The position numbers were made by a program, and so were the translations under genes. A DNA stretch of 53,327 nt from SAR86 cluster bacterium (GTDB taxonomy: Bacteria; Pseudomonadota; Gammaproteobacteria; Pseudomonadales; Pseudohongiellaceae), in assembly GCA_002746215.1 (NCBI GenBank), contig NVWI01000004.1, positions 63,554 through 116,880 on the forward strand, written 5' to 3'. Shown one piece after another: positions 20,678 through 25,403 of the stretch. Position 1 is the stretch's first letter. Each line of letters starts with the position of its first letter. Under the pieces are notes generated by a model. The model searched no databases and was not told the origin of the DNA. It saw only the letters and a program-made list of their open reading frames with translations.

Positions 20678-21073
20678 TCATTCATCTGCAGGATTAATAG
20701 CAAAACCATTTCCAGGGTTCATTGTTTCACCATTAATTACGGCATCAAACCAGGCTGCAGCAGGGCGACCATCTGAAATAGGGTTGCCACGAATGGTTAT
20801 AGGTGTACCAGGGGGTAAATCACCACGTCGAATACCTGCTCGCATCAAAGAGCTTGGTCCTTCCGCCTCAAAACCCCAGGTCGTTACCGAGCCATCTTCA
20901 TTGGTCACATCAACAATGAGCCATGAATGCGGGTTAGTATATTGAAACTGCTTAACAACACCTGTTACTTCAATCAGCTGTGAGTAATCAAACATCGCGC
21001 CTGAATGATGCGCAAAACCGGGCATGCTGAAAAGAGACAGCAAAACCAAACCAGTAAATATTTTTTTCTTCAT
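20678..21073 (-). CDS. DUF6152 family exported protein
   Basis: 131 residues. A signal peptide ends at PGFAHHSGA; the mature protein starts with the family hallmark HHSGAMFD, then VTGVVKQFQYTNPHSWL, WGFEAEGPSSLMRAGIRRGDL and ITIRGNPISDGRPAAAW. The small beta-rich domain probably resembles an OB or copper-binding fold; no function is established. The adjacent histidines directly after the cleavage site could bind metal at a free N-terminus (inference). It follows the 310-residue exported protein by 61 bases and the pair ends at a strong terminator, so they form an operon. Confidence 0.85.
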   Translation of the reverse strand: MKKKIFTGLVLLSLFSMPGFAHHSGAMFDYSQLIEVTGVVKQFQYTNPHSWLIVDVTNEDGSVTTWGFEAEGPSSLMRAGIRRGDLPPGTPITIRGNPISDGRPAAAWFDAVINGETMNPGNGFAINPADE

Positions 21074-21134
21074 TATCTTTCTCCCTAAATATACTTAAAA
21101 AATTGCTTAACCTTGTTGCTCAAAAAACCGCAAC

Positions 21135-22067
21135 TTATAATCCATCTAAAAAATCAAACTCTGAAAACTGACTAGTACCATCATCAAGAATGATAATGTC
21201 ATTGTTTTGGTTTTCACCACACCACCAATAACGAATTCTTAATAAAGTGTCATCATTTGCTAACTCAATCCAGCTCTGACGAGAATACCATGGCTCTGTC
21301 AGATTAACCGGATCAAAAACCCAAAAATCTGCTTCAAGCAAAATGCCATTAACTTTACGCCAGCGCTCAACTACTTCGACTTGATCTGAATAATCAGGTT
21401 GTGCTCCACGCTGATATTGTCCGGCATTAAGATAGGCAGTATGAGTAACCAAAACACCATCGTCCCAGAAACCTATTGTGTCACCATTCCAGGTTGGATA
21501 AGCATCTTCAGGTGCCGTGTGAGCTCGACCATCTGTATAAACACGACGTGCATCATTCACCATCTCATTAACTAACCAAGTTTGATCTGGCGTCACGATA
21601 AATTCATGTAAAAAAGGCTCTGAAGCCCAGCGCGGGTGTCCGGGAGGGCGGCAATCTGAAATCGGATCGTACTCCCCACCAGTAGCAGCAAGTTGATCAA
21701 TTTTTTCCTGTCTTGCTGCAGCGCCTGCTTCAGTAAGTTGAGCGGTAGTTTGATCAGAAGGAATATCAGGATCGAAAGAAAGACCACCTTTTGTTCTTGT
21801 ATAGATGCCTGACCAATCAAACTCAGGTCGATCCATATCTTCCCAGCTCAGTTGATCGCCACCACCGGCCTGGCGTTCCAGATATTCATACATATCGAAG
21901 GCATTATCGAATTCTTCACCGAATGCTTGCAGGCGTTGTTTGTTGTCTTGCCACTGCGCATCACCTTCTCCATAATCCAGCCAGCCTACGAAATCTTGCC
22001 CTAAAGCACTATAGGATGCCGAAATAGCTACCGTAAGTGCTGTTGCTTTAATTATCGATGTTTTCAT
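21135..22067 (-). CDS. Exported conserved protein of unknown function, DUF6152-associated
   Basis: 310 residues with a signal peptide ending YSALGQDF. After an acidic N-terminal region it shows ISDCRPPGHPRW, RRVYTDGRAHT, AYPTWNGDTIGFWDDGVLV and WVFDPVNLTEPWY. The order of these segments (Cys with Pro/His, DGRxH, PTWxGxxxGxW, DPxxL) matches the proteins at 15954-16865 and 38952-39857 distantly, so I read it as a divergent relative. Function unknown. It is the first gene of a two-gene operon with the DUF6152 gene; such pairs are recurrent in acidobacteria and marine gammaproteobacteria. Confidence 0.75.
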   Translation of the reverse strand: MKTSIIKATALTVAISASYSALGQDFVGWLDYGEGDAQWQDNKQRLQAFGEEFDNAFDMYEYLERQAGGGDQLSWEDMDRPEFDWSGIYTRTKGGLSFDPDIPSDQTTAQLTEAGAAARQEKIDQLAATGGEYDPISDCRPPGHPRWASEPFLHEFIVTPDQTWLVNEMVNDARRVYTDGRAHTAPEDAYPTWNGDTIGFWDDGVLVTHTAYLNAGQYQRGAQPDYSDQVEVVERWRKVNGILLEADFWVFDPVNLTEPWYSRQSWIELANDDTLLRIRYWWCGENQNNDIIILDDGTSQFSEFDFLDGL

Positions 22068-22299: not shown

Positions 22300-23808
22300 A
22301 TGTGCAAACTATTCAGTAAAGTAACTCTGAGATTAGTCGTCTTCTTTTATATAGCATCCTTTGCTGCCACTACTTACTCTCAGGCTTTATTTGACCCTGC
22401 TAATCTGATTTTTGAAATCACGCTACCTTCAGAGGCTGAAGCAGAATTGACTGCCTCAGATGAAGTGGCAACTAATGAAGCTTATATTGCTTTAATTGAT
22501 TCCGTCGAACTTTATCAAAGCGCCATCAATGACATCCAGCTAGCAACTAACAACCCTTATAACTTTGAATTACTCGAAGAGTACAGTGACCTCGGCGATG
22601 CCTATAAATCTCTGGGACAACATGACGCAGCAATTAGTAGTTATGATAATGCTATTCAAATTACCAAAATTCAAAATGGGCTTTACAACTTAGACCAGCT
22701 GCCACTGCTACAAAAAACAATCCAAAGCTATCTGTCATTAGGAGATATGGACAATGCAGCGCTTTGGCAAGAACATAGACACTATTTGCATCTGAAAAAC
22801 TACGCTGCAACTGACCCAGCTATGGTTGTAGCAACATTTGCATTGACTGAATGGTATATCGCGACCTTCTTCAGGAACAATTTCCAAAGTGCCAATCAAA
22901 AATTGCAAATGATAGCTAACATGACACCACACCAGTCTCGAACATTCGCAAGATTGATTGAAAATGAATCCATAGCGGACAGTTTTCTGGCTAATCCCAA
23001 TCAAGCTCAGTTTGATAACATCTTAAATGGTGACATAAGGCGAATAAACCCCAGAGATATAGAGCATCCGCTATTGTTGAAAGTAGGGGGCATCTACGAA
23101 GAGCTGCAAGAAAGTATCTATGCTTCTGAACAACCAGATATAGGATCTATCATTCAAACAGCCCGTCGAATAGCCGAATTGTCCTTTATTACCAAACAAG
23201 AAATGGATTTTGAAAGACAATATCCTAATTTTAATGTCAATTACATTAATAGCAGAGAGCAATTATATAGAAATTCTCAACAGAGATTGGATCAAAGTTA
23301 TGACAGTGGTAGAAATGCGCTGCAGTATATTGTTAGCTTATTGAAAGATGTAGAGGCTAGTCCTAGGTTATTAGCCTCAGCTTTAGTTGAGTTAGGTGAT
23401 TGGCACCTTGCCTATGGCAAAATTCAGACAGCCGAAACCACTTATCAAGAAGCTTACAATGTCATGGCAAGTATGGGCATTCCAACGGAAGCCGCTGACG
23501 AAGCTTTCAATGACCCGATCCCCAAACAAATCCCTCGCATGGCAACTCATATGTTTACACGTAGGAGCTCCGGTATTTCCAGTGATGCTAATTTGGCATA
23601 CCAAGGCTATATTGACGTAAGTTTCAACATCGATGGCCAAGGTAACATTGAAGATATTTCATTTGGTGACAGTAGTCCGGACGAAGCCAGGGAAATTCAA
23701 CGTTTTATTGAGTCCAGCCTAAGAATGGCCAAATATCGACCATACTTTAACAATGGCGACCTTATCAACTCCGAAAGAATTAACCTTCGCTACCATTACG
23801 CTTACTAA
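22300..23808 (+). CDS. Exported TPR-like protein with a TonB-like C-terminal domain (first of a tandem pair)
   Basis: 502 residues, signal peptide ending ATTYSQAL. Residues about 85-160 look like tetratricopeptide repeats (LEEYSDLGDAYKSLGQHDAA then ISSYDNAI). A long helical middle follows, including ARRIAELS, KQEMDFERQYPNF and a second TPR-like unit GDWHLAYGKIQTAETTYQEA. The C-terminal 80 residues, GYIDVSFNIDGQGNIEDISF to KYRPYFNNG and LRYHYAY, have the beta-alpha-beta pattern of the TonB C-terminal domain, but no membrane anchor or Pro-rich linker is present. GAGGA lies about 10 bases ahead of the ATG. The next gene is a clear paralogue. Role unknown. Confidence 0.8.
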   Translation: MCKLFSKVTLRLVVFFYIASFAATTYSQALFDPANLIFEITLPSEAEAELTASDEVATNEAYIALIDSVELYQSAINDIQLATNNPYNFELLEEYSDLGDAYKSLGQHDAAISSYDNAIQITKIQNGLYNLDQLPLLQKTIQSYLSLGDMDNAALWQEHRHYLHLKNYAATDPAMVVATFALTEWYIATFFRNNFQSANQKLQMIANMTPHQSRTFARLIENESIADSFLANPNQAQFDNILNGDIRRINPRDIEHPLLLKVGGIYEELQESIYASEQPDIGSIIQTARRIAELSFITKQEMDFERQYPNFNVNYINSREQLYRNSQQRLDQSYDSGRNALQYIVSLLKDVEASPRLLASALVELGDWHLAYGKIQTAETTYQEAYNVMASMGIPTEAADEAFNDPIPKQIPRMATHMFTRRSSGISSDANLAYQGYIDVSFNIDGQGNIEDISFGDSSPDEAREIQRFIESSLRMAKYRPYFNNGDLINSERINLRYHYAY

Positions 23809-23942
23809 AATACACTTTTTAAAATAGTAACTATTGCTCGGTAGCATAAGCTTAAATTCATATTTATGTTCTTATGAATTATGCTGTCTGGATCAAACCA
23901 ACCCCAAAGCTAATAAAAATATCGATGTCAAAGGGGCTTAAC

Positions 23943-25403
23943 ATGCGCACAATTCAACTACAAGCAGGCAGTCAGCCCTTACGGCTCTTAGTTTGTATTA
24001 TTTTTTCTACACTTAGCCCTTTCATCTCTTTGCCAGCCCATGCTCAGGATGACGAACTAACAAACCTCTTCTTTACTCCAGTTCCTTTATCACAAGCCGA
24101 CCTAATCACACTTAATGCAGGCAGCTTATCAGACGTGGATAAACAATCAGCAGCAGAAGCCATTCCCCGGCTTCAAGAAGAATTAAGTGAAATGGAAACT
24201 GAAGATTCTAGTGATCCAGAATTGTTACTTCAGTTGAATACACTTGGGCTAGCGCAGCAAGCAATTGAGCGACATGAAGAGGCTATTACAAGCTTCGATA
24301 GAGCTGCTGCACTAGCCGTTGAACTTTATGGTGAAAGTAGTCTTCAACAGGCGCCGATGCTAGAGCAATCAATTATCAGCCACCTTAAATTAAATAATAT
24401 TTCTGAAATTACTGACATAGAAGAGCTTCTTTATGAGCTCAGATCAGAGCAATATGCTGCAGATTCTGCTGAAATGTATACAGCTATGACAAACTTAGCT
24501 GATTGGTACAGTGCTGCATATATGAAGGAAGGTTACCTCTCACGAGAGACAGGCTTTATCCCCAGAACAAATGCTCGCCTAAGAGGTGATCAAGCGATTG
24601 GCCTTCCGCCTTCAGTCACTTTTGTTGGCTTTATACCCCCAAGTATTAATGAAGTTCTCGATATCCGGCTACGAAAACTTGAGAGTCTGTATGAAAAATA
24701 TCAAGAAAGTTACACTAGCAATACAACTCTTACTATAGTTGTCGATGTCGCCCGCCGAATAGCTCGCCTTGCTTATCACGCTGAACAGGAAATGGATTAT
24801 GAAAGAGAATTCAATGTTTTCTCTCGCAATTACAGAGGCTCACCTGAAGAAGGTGTTCGCAATTCAACAGATCGTCGTGATAAAAATTATGATGCTGGTA
24901 GAATAGCCTTGGAGTATGTAGTAGACCTGGTACGGCAAGCAGAAGGCGTTGGTGCCCAACAAGTCGCTCTGGCCTTTCTTGACCTTGCAGATTGGAAACT
25001 AGCTTACGGTCAGATTAGAATTGCTAGAGAAGGCTATCAGTCTGCCTATCAAGTATTGCGCGATGAAGGCTTTAATGATGCAAGTATCGATGCGGCGTTG
25101 ACTACAGCAGTGCCACTGCCAATTCCCAGGATTGGAGCCTTCCCTGCGACCCAGCAAACATCAGGCAGCCTCGGCCTTATTCCTGTTCCAAATTACACAG
25201 GTTATATCGATGTAAGTTTTGCCTTGAATGATATAGGGAATACTACTGATATTACAGTGTTAGGCAGCAGTCAAAACGATATTGGAAGAATCCAAAAAAT
25301 TCTGGAAAACCAAATTAAATTAACCAAATACCGCCCTCTTTTAATGGCCGGAGAGCTAGTTGCCCAAGGTCGACTTGAATACCGCTATTATTATTCCTAC
25401 TAA
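23943..25403 (+). CDS. Exported TPR-like protein with a TonB-like C-terminal domain (second of a tandem pair)
   Basis: From the ATG at 23943, preceded by AAAGGGG, the protein has 486 residues and a signal peptide ending LPAHAQDD; an upstream ATG at 23874 would only lengthen the N-terminus. It matches the preceding gene product along its length: TPR-like ERHEEAITSFDRAAAL, then VARRIARLAYHAEQEMDYE, RNSTDRRDKNYDAGRIALEY, LADWKLAYGQIRIAREGY, and C-terminal YTGYIDVSFALNDIGN with TKYRPLLMAG and LEYRYYYSY. This indicates an old tandem duplication. The 134-base gap may or may not hold a separate promoter. Partner and substrate unknown. Confidence 0.8.
   Translation: MRTIQLQAGSQPLRLLVCIIFSTLSPFISLPAHAQDDELTNLFFTPVPLSQADLITLNAGSLSDVDKQSAAEAIPRLQEELSEMETEDSSDPELLLQLNTLGLAQQAIERHEEAITSFDRAAALAVELYGESSLQQAPMLEQSIISHLKLNNISEITDIEELLYELRSEQYAADSAEMYTAMTNLADWYSAAYMKEGYLSRETGFIPRTNARLRGDQAIGLPPSVTFVGFIPPSINEVLDIRLRKLESLYEKYQESYTSNTTLTIVVDVARRIARLAYHAEQEMDYEREFNVFSRNYRGSPEEGVRNSTDRRDKNYDAGRIALEYVVDLVRQAEGVGAQQVALAFLDLADWKLAYGQIRIAREGYQSAYQVLRDEGFNDASIDAALTTAVPLPIPRIGAFPATQQTSGSLGLIPVPNYTGYIDVSFALNDIGNTTDITVLGSSQNDIGRIQKILENQIKLTKYRPLLMAGELVAQGRLEYRYYYSY

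Follow-up and report, generated by a model that had tools for sequence, protein, structure and literature searches.

Motors formed by a TolQ-like channel and TPH-vWA proteins were put forward in 2025 on the basis of gene order (synteny) and structural models, and the sections of that account dealing with them assign no function (PMC12204202). The von Willebrand factor A (vWA) genes are described there as heterologous pairs beside tolQ-like genes, with no tolR or exbD, and with an Asp residue in the transpore helix. In the present work we analyzed a stretch of 53,327 nucleotides from a SAR86 cluster bacterium (contig NVWI01000004.1 of assembly GCA_002746215.1, positions 63,554 to 116,880 of the forward strand; host genome 3.1 Mb in 22 contigs), hereafter called the window, and within it two adjacent genes, P1 and P2, whose products combine a tetratricopeptide repeat (TPR) part with a predicted C-terminal domain of the TonB_C type. 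What is new here is the link of this TPR-TonB_C family to a TolQ-like/TPH-vWA motor locus; in its description of TPH-vWA, PMC12204202 names no TPR-TonB_C protein, and a TPR gene is mentioned for another vWA family.

As described in PMC12204202 and PMC5349195, proton-driven TolQ-type channels move their partners, the TonB_C tip sits on an anchored protein, and the C-terminal domains of TolA and TonB bind their targets via β-strand addition. In Vibrio, the TPR protein TtpD2 is described as being required for the TonB2 system (PMC6957404). The Agl-Glt machinery of Myxococcus is described as combining a TolQR-type motor, TPR proteins that are exported, and the TonB_C proteins GltG and GltJ (PMC3169522, PMC5349195).

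When P1 was used as the query, its own genome yielded three copies, and 38 of 57 relatives were matched. Of 293 genomes searched in the order with a profile made from 34 members, 116 matched at E ≤ 0.001. In 66 of them the E-value was no higher than 5.9e-21; G123 came next (1.2e-9), its listed match being limited to the TonB_C end (profile positions 426–494). The gene for one of the two vWA proteins, vWA1 (cut-off E ≤ 1e-20), was found in 68 of the 293 genomes. All 66 strong family matches were among these, and no genome carried the family gene alone. In five genome families (f16, f24, f40, f46, and f47), some genomes carry vWA1 and others lack it; within each of these families, strong matches to TPR-TonB_C coincided exactly with vWA1. 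The two genes were on one contig in 52 genomes, 7.7–13.9 kb apart in 51 of them, the sole exception being the window's own genome (140 kb); in 14 genomes they were on different contigs. In a class-wide sample of 369 genomes, all nine family-positive genomes were among the 31 vWA1-positive ones (E ≤ 1e-15 for both). The family thus appears to require the motor, and not the reverse.

The same association was observed at the level of individual loci. In 30 of 30 loci, from 30 genomes of the order outside three genera with expanded families (g1, the window's own, g2, and g8), the family gene lay on the same strand within 4 kb upstream of a lipoprotein-like gene, Lip6; these loci had been fetched for a family match. 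In a count of 44 loci with Lip6, the family gene was upstream in 32 (L065 and L097 being one genome) and missing in 12, namely five from g2/g8 (one ending within 0.15 kb), five class-level loci, and two ending within 0.75 kb. Most of the 44 had likewise been fetched for a family match, so that the count tells what adjoins the gene and not the frequency of loci without it. Greedy gene calling misses genes beneath long opposite open reading frames (ORFs), as happened to the family gene in L125, and an ORF-based count was used for the Lip6 loci.

Outside the window's lineage the locus begins with one to three TPR-TonB_C genes, a Ser/Gly-rich lipoprotein-like gene, Lip6, a gene for a protein with a transmembrane and a TPR part, and a PEGA/FGE-sulfatase-like gene, and continues with genes for a small exported protein, the TolQ/ExbB-like channel, a protein of ~440 amino acids (aa), two membrane-anchored vWA proteins (vWA1 and vWA2), two lipoprotein-like proteins, and an M48 peptidase. 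The lipoprotein-like genes were judged by eye. The family gene is usually the first in the locus, and several copies were found in or beside some loci (three each at L127 and L133, two each at L134 and L135). Pfam recognized PEGA and FGE-sulfatase, MotA_ExbB (E 1.3e-14 and 1.6e-14 for the TolQ-like channel), vWA (vWA1 over the cut-off, vWA2 under it), and M48, and gave no match for the ~440-aa protein; no match to ExbD or TolR was obtained among the motor-locus proteins scanned. Both vWA proteins start with a membrane helix around F-L-D. The rows of an earlier vWA1 alignment came from a scan demanding an L-D/I-D and a C-G motif, so that their invariance arose partly by selection. In the unselected recheck of 27 vWA1 genes, all had F-L-D in the N-terminal membrane helix and 25 had the C-G-x-G part; among 27 vWA2 genes F-L-D was visible in 26, the ORF of L150 being over-extended. 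As far as can be likened by description (PMC12204202), the locus resembles the TPH-vWA systems in its TolQ-like gene, its heterologous vWA pair, the membrane-helix Asp, and the lack of ExbD/TolR. A defence system was considered as another identity for the locus and rejected; the PADLOC matches of the motor proteins were weak (best 7.5e-5, LmuB for vWA1; 4.2e-4, ZorA2 for the channel), and P1 and P2 had none.

A preliminary description, made from the sequence of the window, had presented P1 and P2 as two adjacent exported paralogues belonging to no named family, with TPR-like repeats, a central block, and a TonB-like C-terminus devoid of anchor or Pro-rich linker. Apart from the central block, these claims agree with the results given below. 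The two ORFs lie on the same strand, 65 bases apart, and their products are 30% identical over the full length (34% over residues 64–502 in the genome search). The motifs named in the description start at residues 288/293 (ARRIA), 300/305 (QEMD), 324/329 (RNS), 334 of P1 (YDSGR) and 339 of P2 (YDAGR), and, in the C-terminal part, at 436/443 (GYIDVSF) and 478/485 (KYRP). Since the pair is present in all five genomes examined in the genus, always together, it is not a chance pair of ORFs. Neither P1 nor P2 is covered in full by any family of Pfam or NCBIfam. Naming the proteins by family was also tried and given up, as Pfam and NCBIfam returned TPR, sub-threshold TonB_C, and weak unrelated matches. 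Neither protein had an NCBIfam match over the curated cut-off, and a scan of the 34 members gave weak matches only (best 8.5e-5).

The Pfam TonB_C model (PF03544) was below its cut-off for P1 (16.1 vs 24.6 bits, E 0.016), was not listed for P2, and was found at E ≤ 0.1 in 12 of 34 family members (best 7.5e-5). When the family profile was compared with the PDB, it matched 2k9k, TonB2 of Vibrio anguillarum (E 2e-7), and hhalign of the family against five TonB_C proteins from the window's own genome gave prob 83.9 and E 7.7e-6 over 63 columns. As the TPR part fills the match list in a whole-protein fold search and hides the C-terminal domain, this domain of P1 was modelled alone. The model was of moderate quality (15 sequences; mean predicted local distance difference test score (pLDDT) 76.5, predicted template modelling score (pTM) 0.64) and had a β-β-α-β topology. 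The best 16 Foldseek matches in the PDB were all TonB-type domains (best E 1.6e-3, none reaching 0.001), and the best 22 VIA rows were all TonB, TolA, or paralogues of these, the TonB fragment of 6i97 (6i97_D) scoring Z 7.2 (84 residues aligned, 4.2 Å). The residues invariant in the domain are conserved in both P1 and P2. Profile matches and the shared predicted fold indicate that the domain is a TonB_C homologue. In the same genome we also observed a 128-aa exported-looking protein (L035; G000:C22:319470-319646 and around) that is barely more than a TonB_C domain, without a linker, and scores 51 bits, over the cut-off.

TPR_8 and TPR_2 exceeded the Pfam cut-off in P1, and no TPR match over a cut-off was found in P2. 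TPR_12 was below the cut-off in both (29.8 and 27.9 vs 30.1 bits); of the 34 family members, 33 gave a TPR_12 match at E ≤ 0.1. The AlphaFold model of P1 (15 sequences; mean pLDDT 79, pTM 0.77; low confidence at residues 1–29, 53–57, and 203–248) predicts a single helical superhelix at ~58–403, followed by the β-β-α-β C-terminal domain. VIA aligned this superhelix with the TPR of kinesin light chain (Z 15.9, 225 residues, 5.5 Å); because helical repeats score high generally, the match is taken to indicate a TPR fold and not a function. The central block, listed apart from the repeats in the preliminary description, falls in the model within the helices of the one TPR-like superhelix and is not a separate domain. 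Related proteins of 365–406 aa in genera g3 and g4 (L151, L152, and L153) have the TPR part without the TonB_C-like tail, which may be dispensable or lost in them.

No lipobox was seen in the N-terminus of P1 when read by eye, and the consensus of the family alignment at the signal cleavage site is A-x-A-Q. A survey of 100 family ORFs, made with a crude script and including some ORFs fetched twice, found an AxA-like site in 92, an N-terminal hydrophobic stretch above the set limit in 74, and a lipobox-like site in 2; at least 12 Pro in 40 residues were found in 1. To judge by these N-termini, the family proteins carry an export signal and are probably soluble in the periplasm, and an uncleaved signal anchor may take the place of a cleaved signal peptide. 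The family thus resembles TonB and TolA in its predicted C-terminal fold and in having a TolQ/ExbB-type channel among its partner genes. Unlike them, it has a signal-peptide-like N-terminus and not a motor-binding helix, the S-x-H-x-L-x-S anchor motif (SHLS) is absent from P1 and P2 in a motif scan, and the TPR superhelix replaces the Pro-rich or helical spacer, domain II.

In the window's lineage, the three related genera g1, g2, and g8, the family gene is gone from its slot in the motor locus. At L119 (g2) and L120 (g8), less than 0.4 kb separates hyuA from the Ser-rich lipoprotein-like gene, after which the remainder of the motor locus follows. In the window's own genome, the locus was found in two halves on contig C17, one at ~228–238 kb (mutM-hyuA-SerLip-Lip6-TPRtm-PEGA, with a hyuA–SerLip gap of ~50 bases) and the other, carrying the TolQ-like, vWA, and M48 genes, at ~350–358 kb; the third family copy (G000:C17:213855-215072) is ~13 kb from the first half. 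All five genomes of the genus retain the TolQ-like and vWA genes. In a tree of 79 rows, the 44 copies of the three genera formed one side of a single branch (support 100/98), and shuffled labels gave 26 changes. The 'linked' and 'unlinked' labels were set by genus (g1, g2, and g8 as unlinked) and not per gene, and since several very long branches meet in the tree, the deep order among the motor-linked copies was not used. Genomes of the three genera gave 2–15 match segments each (G016 gave 0), with two segments coming from a single gene in some cases. Because the 44 copies fall on one side of one branch, the gene probably left the motor locus once and was then amplified, the copies standing in tandem pairs, in triples, or dispersed.

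Some further observations concern individual copies and segments. In L087 (contig JAURLQ010000176.1, 4394-5771), a tandem paralogue is broken into two ORFs of 145 and 309 aa and is perhaps a decaying copy in an array. The copy at L086 (JAHEEO010000062.1) shares 35% identity with P1; its contig is labelled Rhodospirillales and may be mis-binned or transferred. In the window's genome, two stretches (G000:C4:202106-209191 and G000:C17:555918-563003) gave identical scores for an FGE-like gene interrupted by a stop and for a distant TolQ-like gene, possibly reflecting a duplicated segment or an assembly repeat.

The features of the gene pair are collected in the table. The first ATG of P2 is probably too early, since its orthologues begin near position 23943, where an internal ATG is perhaps the true start. 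The amidohydrolase gene 3' of the pair is followed by a YqeY-like gene (Pfam) and by genes read as dnaG and rpoD. Divergent from the pair are genes for an exported protein without a Pfam match and a DUF6152 protein (20678-22067; beside P1/P2 in 5/5 genomes of the genus) and for a Sel1-repeat protein. This gene order is conserved in all five genomes, except that the YqeY gene was uncalled in L055.

Table. Coordinates, within the window, of the P1-P2 pair, its predicted domains, and the adjoining amidohydrolase gene.
Feature	Position	Strand	Basis
P1, exported TPR-TonB_C protein, 502 aa	22300..23808	+	ORF; family profile; kept in 5/5 genomes of the genus
P1 signal peptide, ~residues 1-27 (T-Y-S / Q cleavage)	22300..22380	+	judged by eye
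P1 TPR superhelix, ~residues 58-403	22471..23508	+	Pfam TPR matches; AlphaFold model; VIA match
P1 'central block', ARRIA...YDSGR, residues 288-338, within the superhelix	23161..23313	+	motif positions; model helices 281-307, 319-324, 327-350
P1 C-terminal domain of predicted TonB_C fold, residues 432-502	23593..23805	+	profile matches and predicted fold
P2, paralogue of P1, 509 aa counted from the first ATG	23874..25403	+	ORF
P2 TPR superhelix, ~residues 86-411	24129..25106	+	aligned to P1
P2 TonB_C-like C-terminal domain, residues 439-509	25188..25400	+	aligned to P1
Amidohydrolase, downstream of P1-P2	25515..26843	+	adjoins the pair in 5/5 genomes of the genus

With moderate confidence, we favour the interpretation that the TPR-TonB_C family is a soluble periplasmic adaptor of an uncharacterized proton-driven trans-envelope motor. 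The export signal, the predicted fold, the genetic linkage, and the relocation with amplification are results of the analysis; contact with the motor, docking, transfer of force, and specialization for clients are inferred. TtpD2 and Agl-Glt are published systems that pair similar parts. As with TtpD2, a TPR protein is tied to an Exb/Ton-type system; by description, TtpD2 differs in its length of 425 aa, in having TPR motifs as its only named feature, and in acting beside a separate TonB2 (PMC6957404). The likeness to Agl-Glt lies in a TolQR-type motor with TPR and TonB_C parts; there, as described, the two parts are on different proteins, the TonB_C proteins have a transmembrane helix, and the function is motility (PMC3169522, PMC5349195). 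If the adaptor interpretation is correct, a TolQ-like pentamer would use the proton gradient to drive the vWA pair, the TPR groove would hold one partner on the motor side or a lipoprotein, and the TonB_C tip would present a β-edge to a client in the outer membrane or a lipoprotein, docking on it by strand addition. The TPR-TonB_C protein would then be an exchangeable periplasmic part that links the motor to the outer membrane and transfers its force, and the relocated and multiplied adaptors of the window's lineage look as if they served several clients.

A number of observations weigh against this interpretation. Genetic linkage is not contact, and in the window's own genome P1-P2 adjoins unrelated genes. 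The cut-off for a strong family match in the order (E ≤ 1e-20) was chosen after the table had been seen, 4–6 candidates were scored per genome in the order and class searches, so that absences are soft, and the Fisher test of co-occurrence ignores shared ancestry, which inflates its p-value. Two of the 68 vWA1-positive genomes of the order, G016 and G180, had no strong family match (the contig of G180 begins 300 bases before vWA1). In the class-wide sample, 22 of the 31 vWA1-positive genomes had no family match at E ≤ 1e-15, and no evident TPR-TonB_C gene was seen upstream of six class-wide motor loci when these were read by eye (ORF ends, ≥ 180 aa); two more, L141 and L144, end too close to judge. 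Because of these 22 genomes and six loci, the motor either can do without the TPR-TonB_C protein or uses an unrecognized partner.

The preliminary description had also suggested that the TonB-like domain docks on an outer-membrane receptor or on a periplasmic partner. It would fit the predicted fold if the tip docked on TonB-dependent receptors and modulated or assisted canonical TonB-ExbBD uptake, the paralogues serving subsets of receptors. The window's genome gave 18 Plug-domain matches and has other TonB_C proteins that resemble anchored TonB or TolA, and the median number of Plug candidates in the 68 vWA1-positive genomes was 35.5. However, receptor numbers do not follow the family: 43–74 candidates were found in 11 genomes of f24 without the family, up to 57 and 66 in such genomes of f30 and f47, and 70 in G173 (f14), whereas G119 and G076 have the family with 3 and 4. 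These are candidates from a loose first look, since 15 per genome were scored. A tracking of the family by receptor counts, seen in 21 order-level genomes (the three system-bearing ones being the three highest), was gone in the larger sample, and no receptor-like cluster of conserved neighbours was seen, clusters not having all been scanned for receptor domains. We therefore do not favour docking on receptors in general, and consider this reading unlikely, although single receptor clients may be docked; it is the motor locus that the family gene follows, which brings the periplasmic partner of the preliminary description closer to the evidence.

The possibility also exists that the proteins are periplasmic chaperones or trafficking factors for the PEGA protein and the lipoproteins encoded at the locus, with the TonB_C domain as a β-edge clamp that transmits no force. 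TPR proteins often serve in such roles, and the family gene adjoins lipoprotein-like genes (as judged by eye) and the gene for an M48 peptidase. Taken alone, this reading leaves the TonB_C-like tail of the motor-linked copies and the amplification after relocation unexplained, and it seems improbable to us. We give similarly little weight to the idea that the relocated copies in the window's genus have been cut from the motor and have acquired another role, e.g. with the neighbouring amidohydrolase. The fixed P1-P2-amidohydrolase order in all five genomes of the genus, some long branches among the relocated copies, and the exceptional position of the window's genome in the same-contig linkage are in line with it, whereas the retention of TolQ-like and vWA genes in all five genomes and of the invariant C-terminal residues in P1 and P2 argues against it.

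The adaptor interpretation can be taken one step further, to a 'detached TonB'. In the TolA and TonB cases described, an anchored protein carries the TonB_C tip (PMC12204202, PMC5349195), whereas in the P1/P2 family the carrier is a TPR protein with an export signal. It is possible, rather than probable, that the vWA pair does the moving and that the tip sits on a separate, exchangeable soluble TPR arm, of which the window's lineage has made a repertoire (three copies here, more in the sister genera), so that one motor would address many outer-membrane clients. Such an arrangement was not found in the literature searched. If it is true, the tip of TonB would be separable from its anchor and could be multiplied. 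The family, which within the order is exclusive to motor-bearing genomes (66 of 66 strong matches, 293 genomes searched), provides a concrete handle on the function of the TolQ-like/vWA motor.

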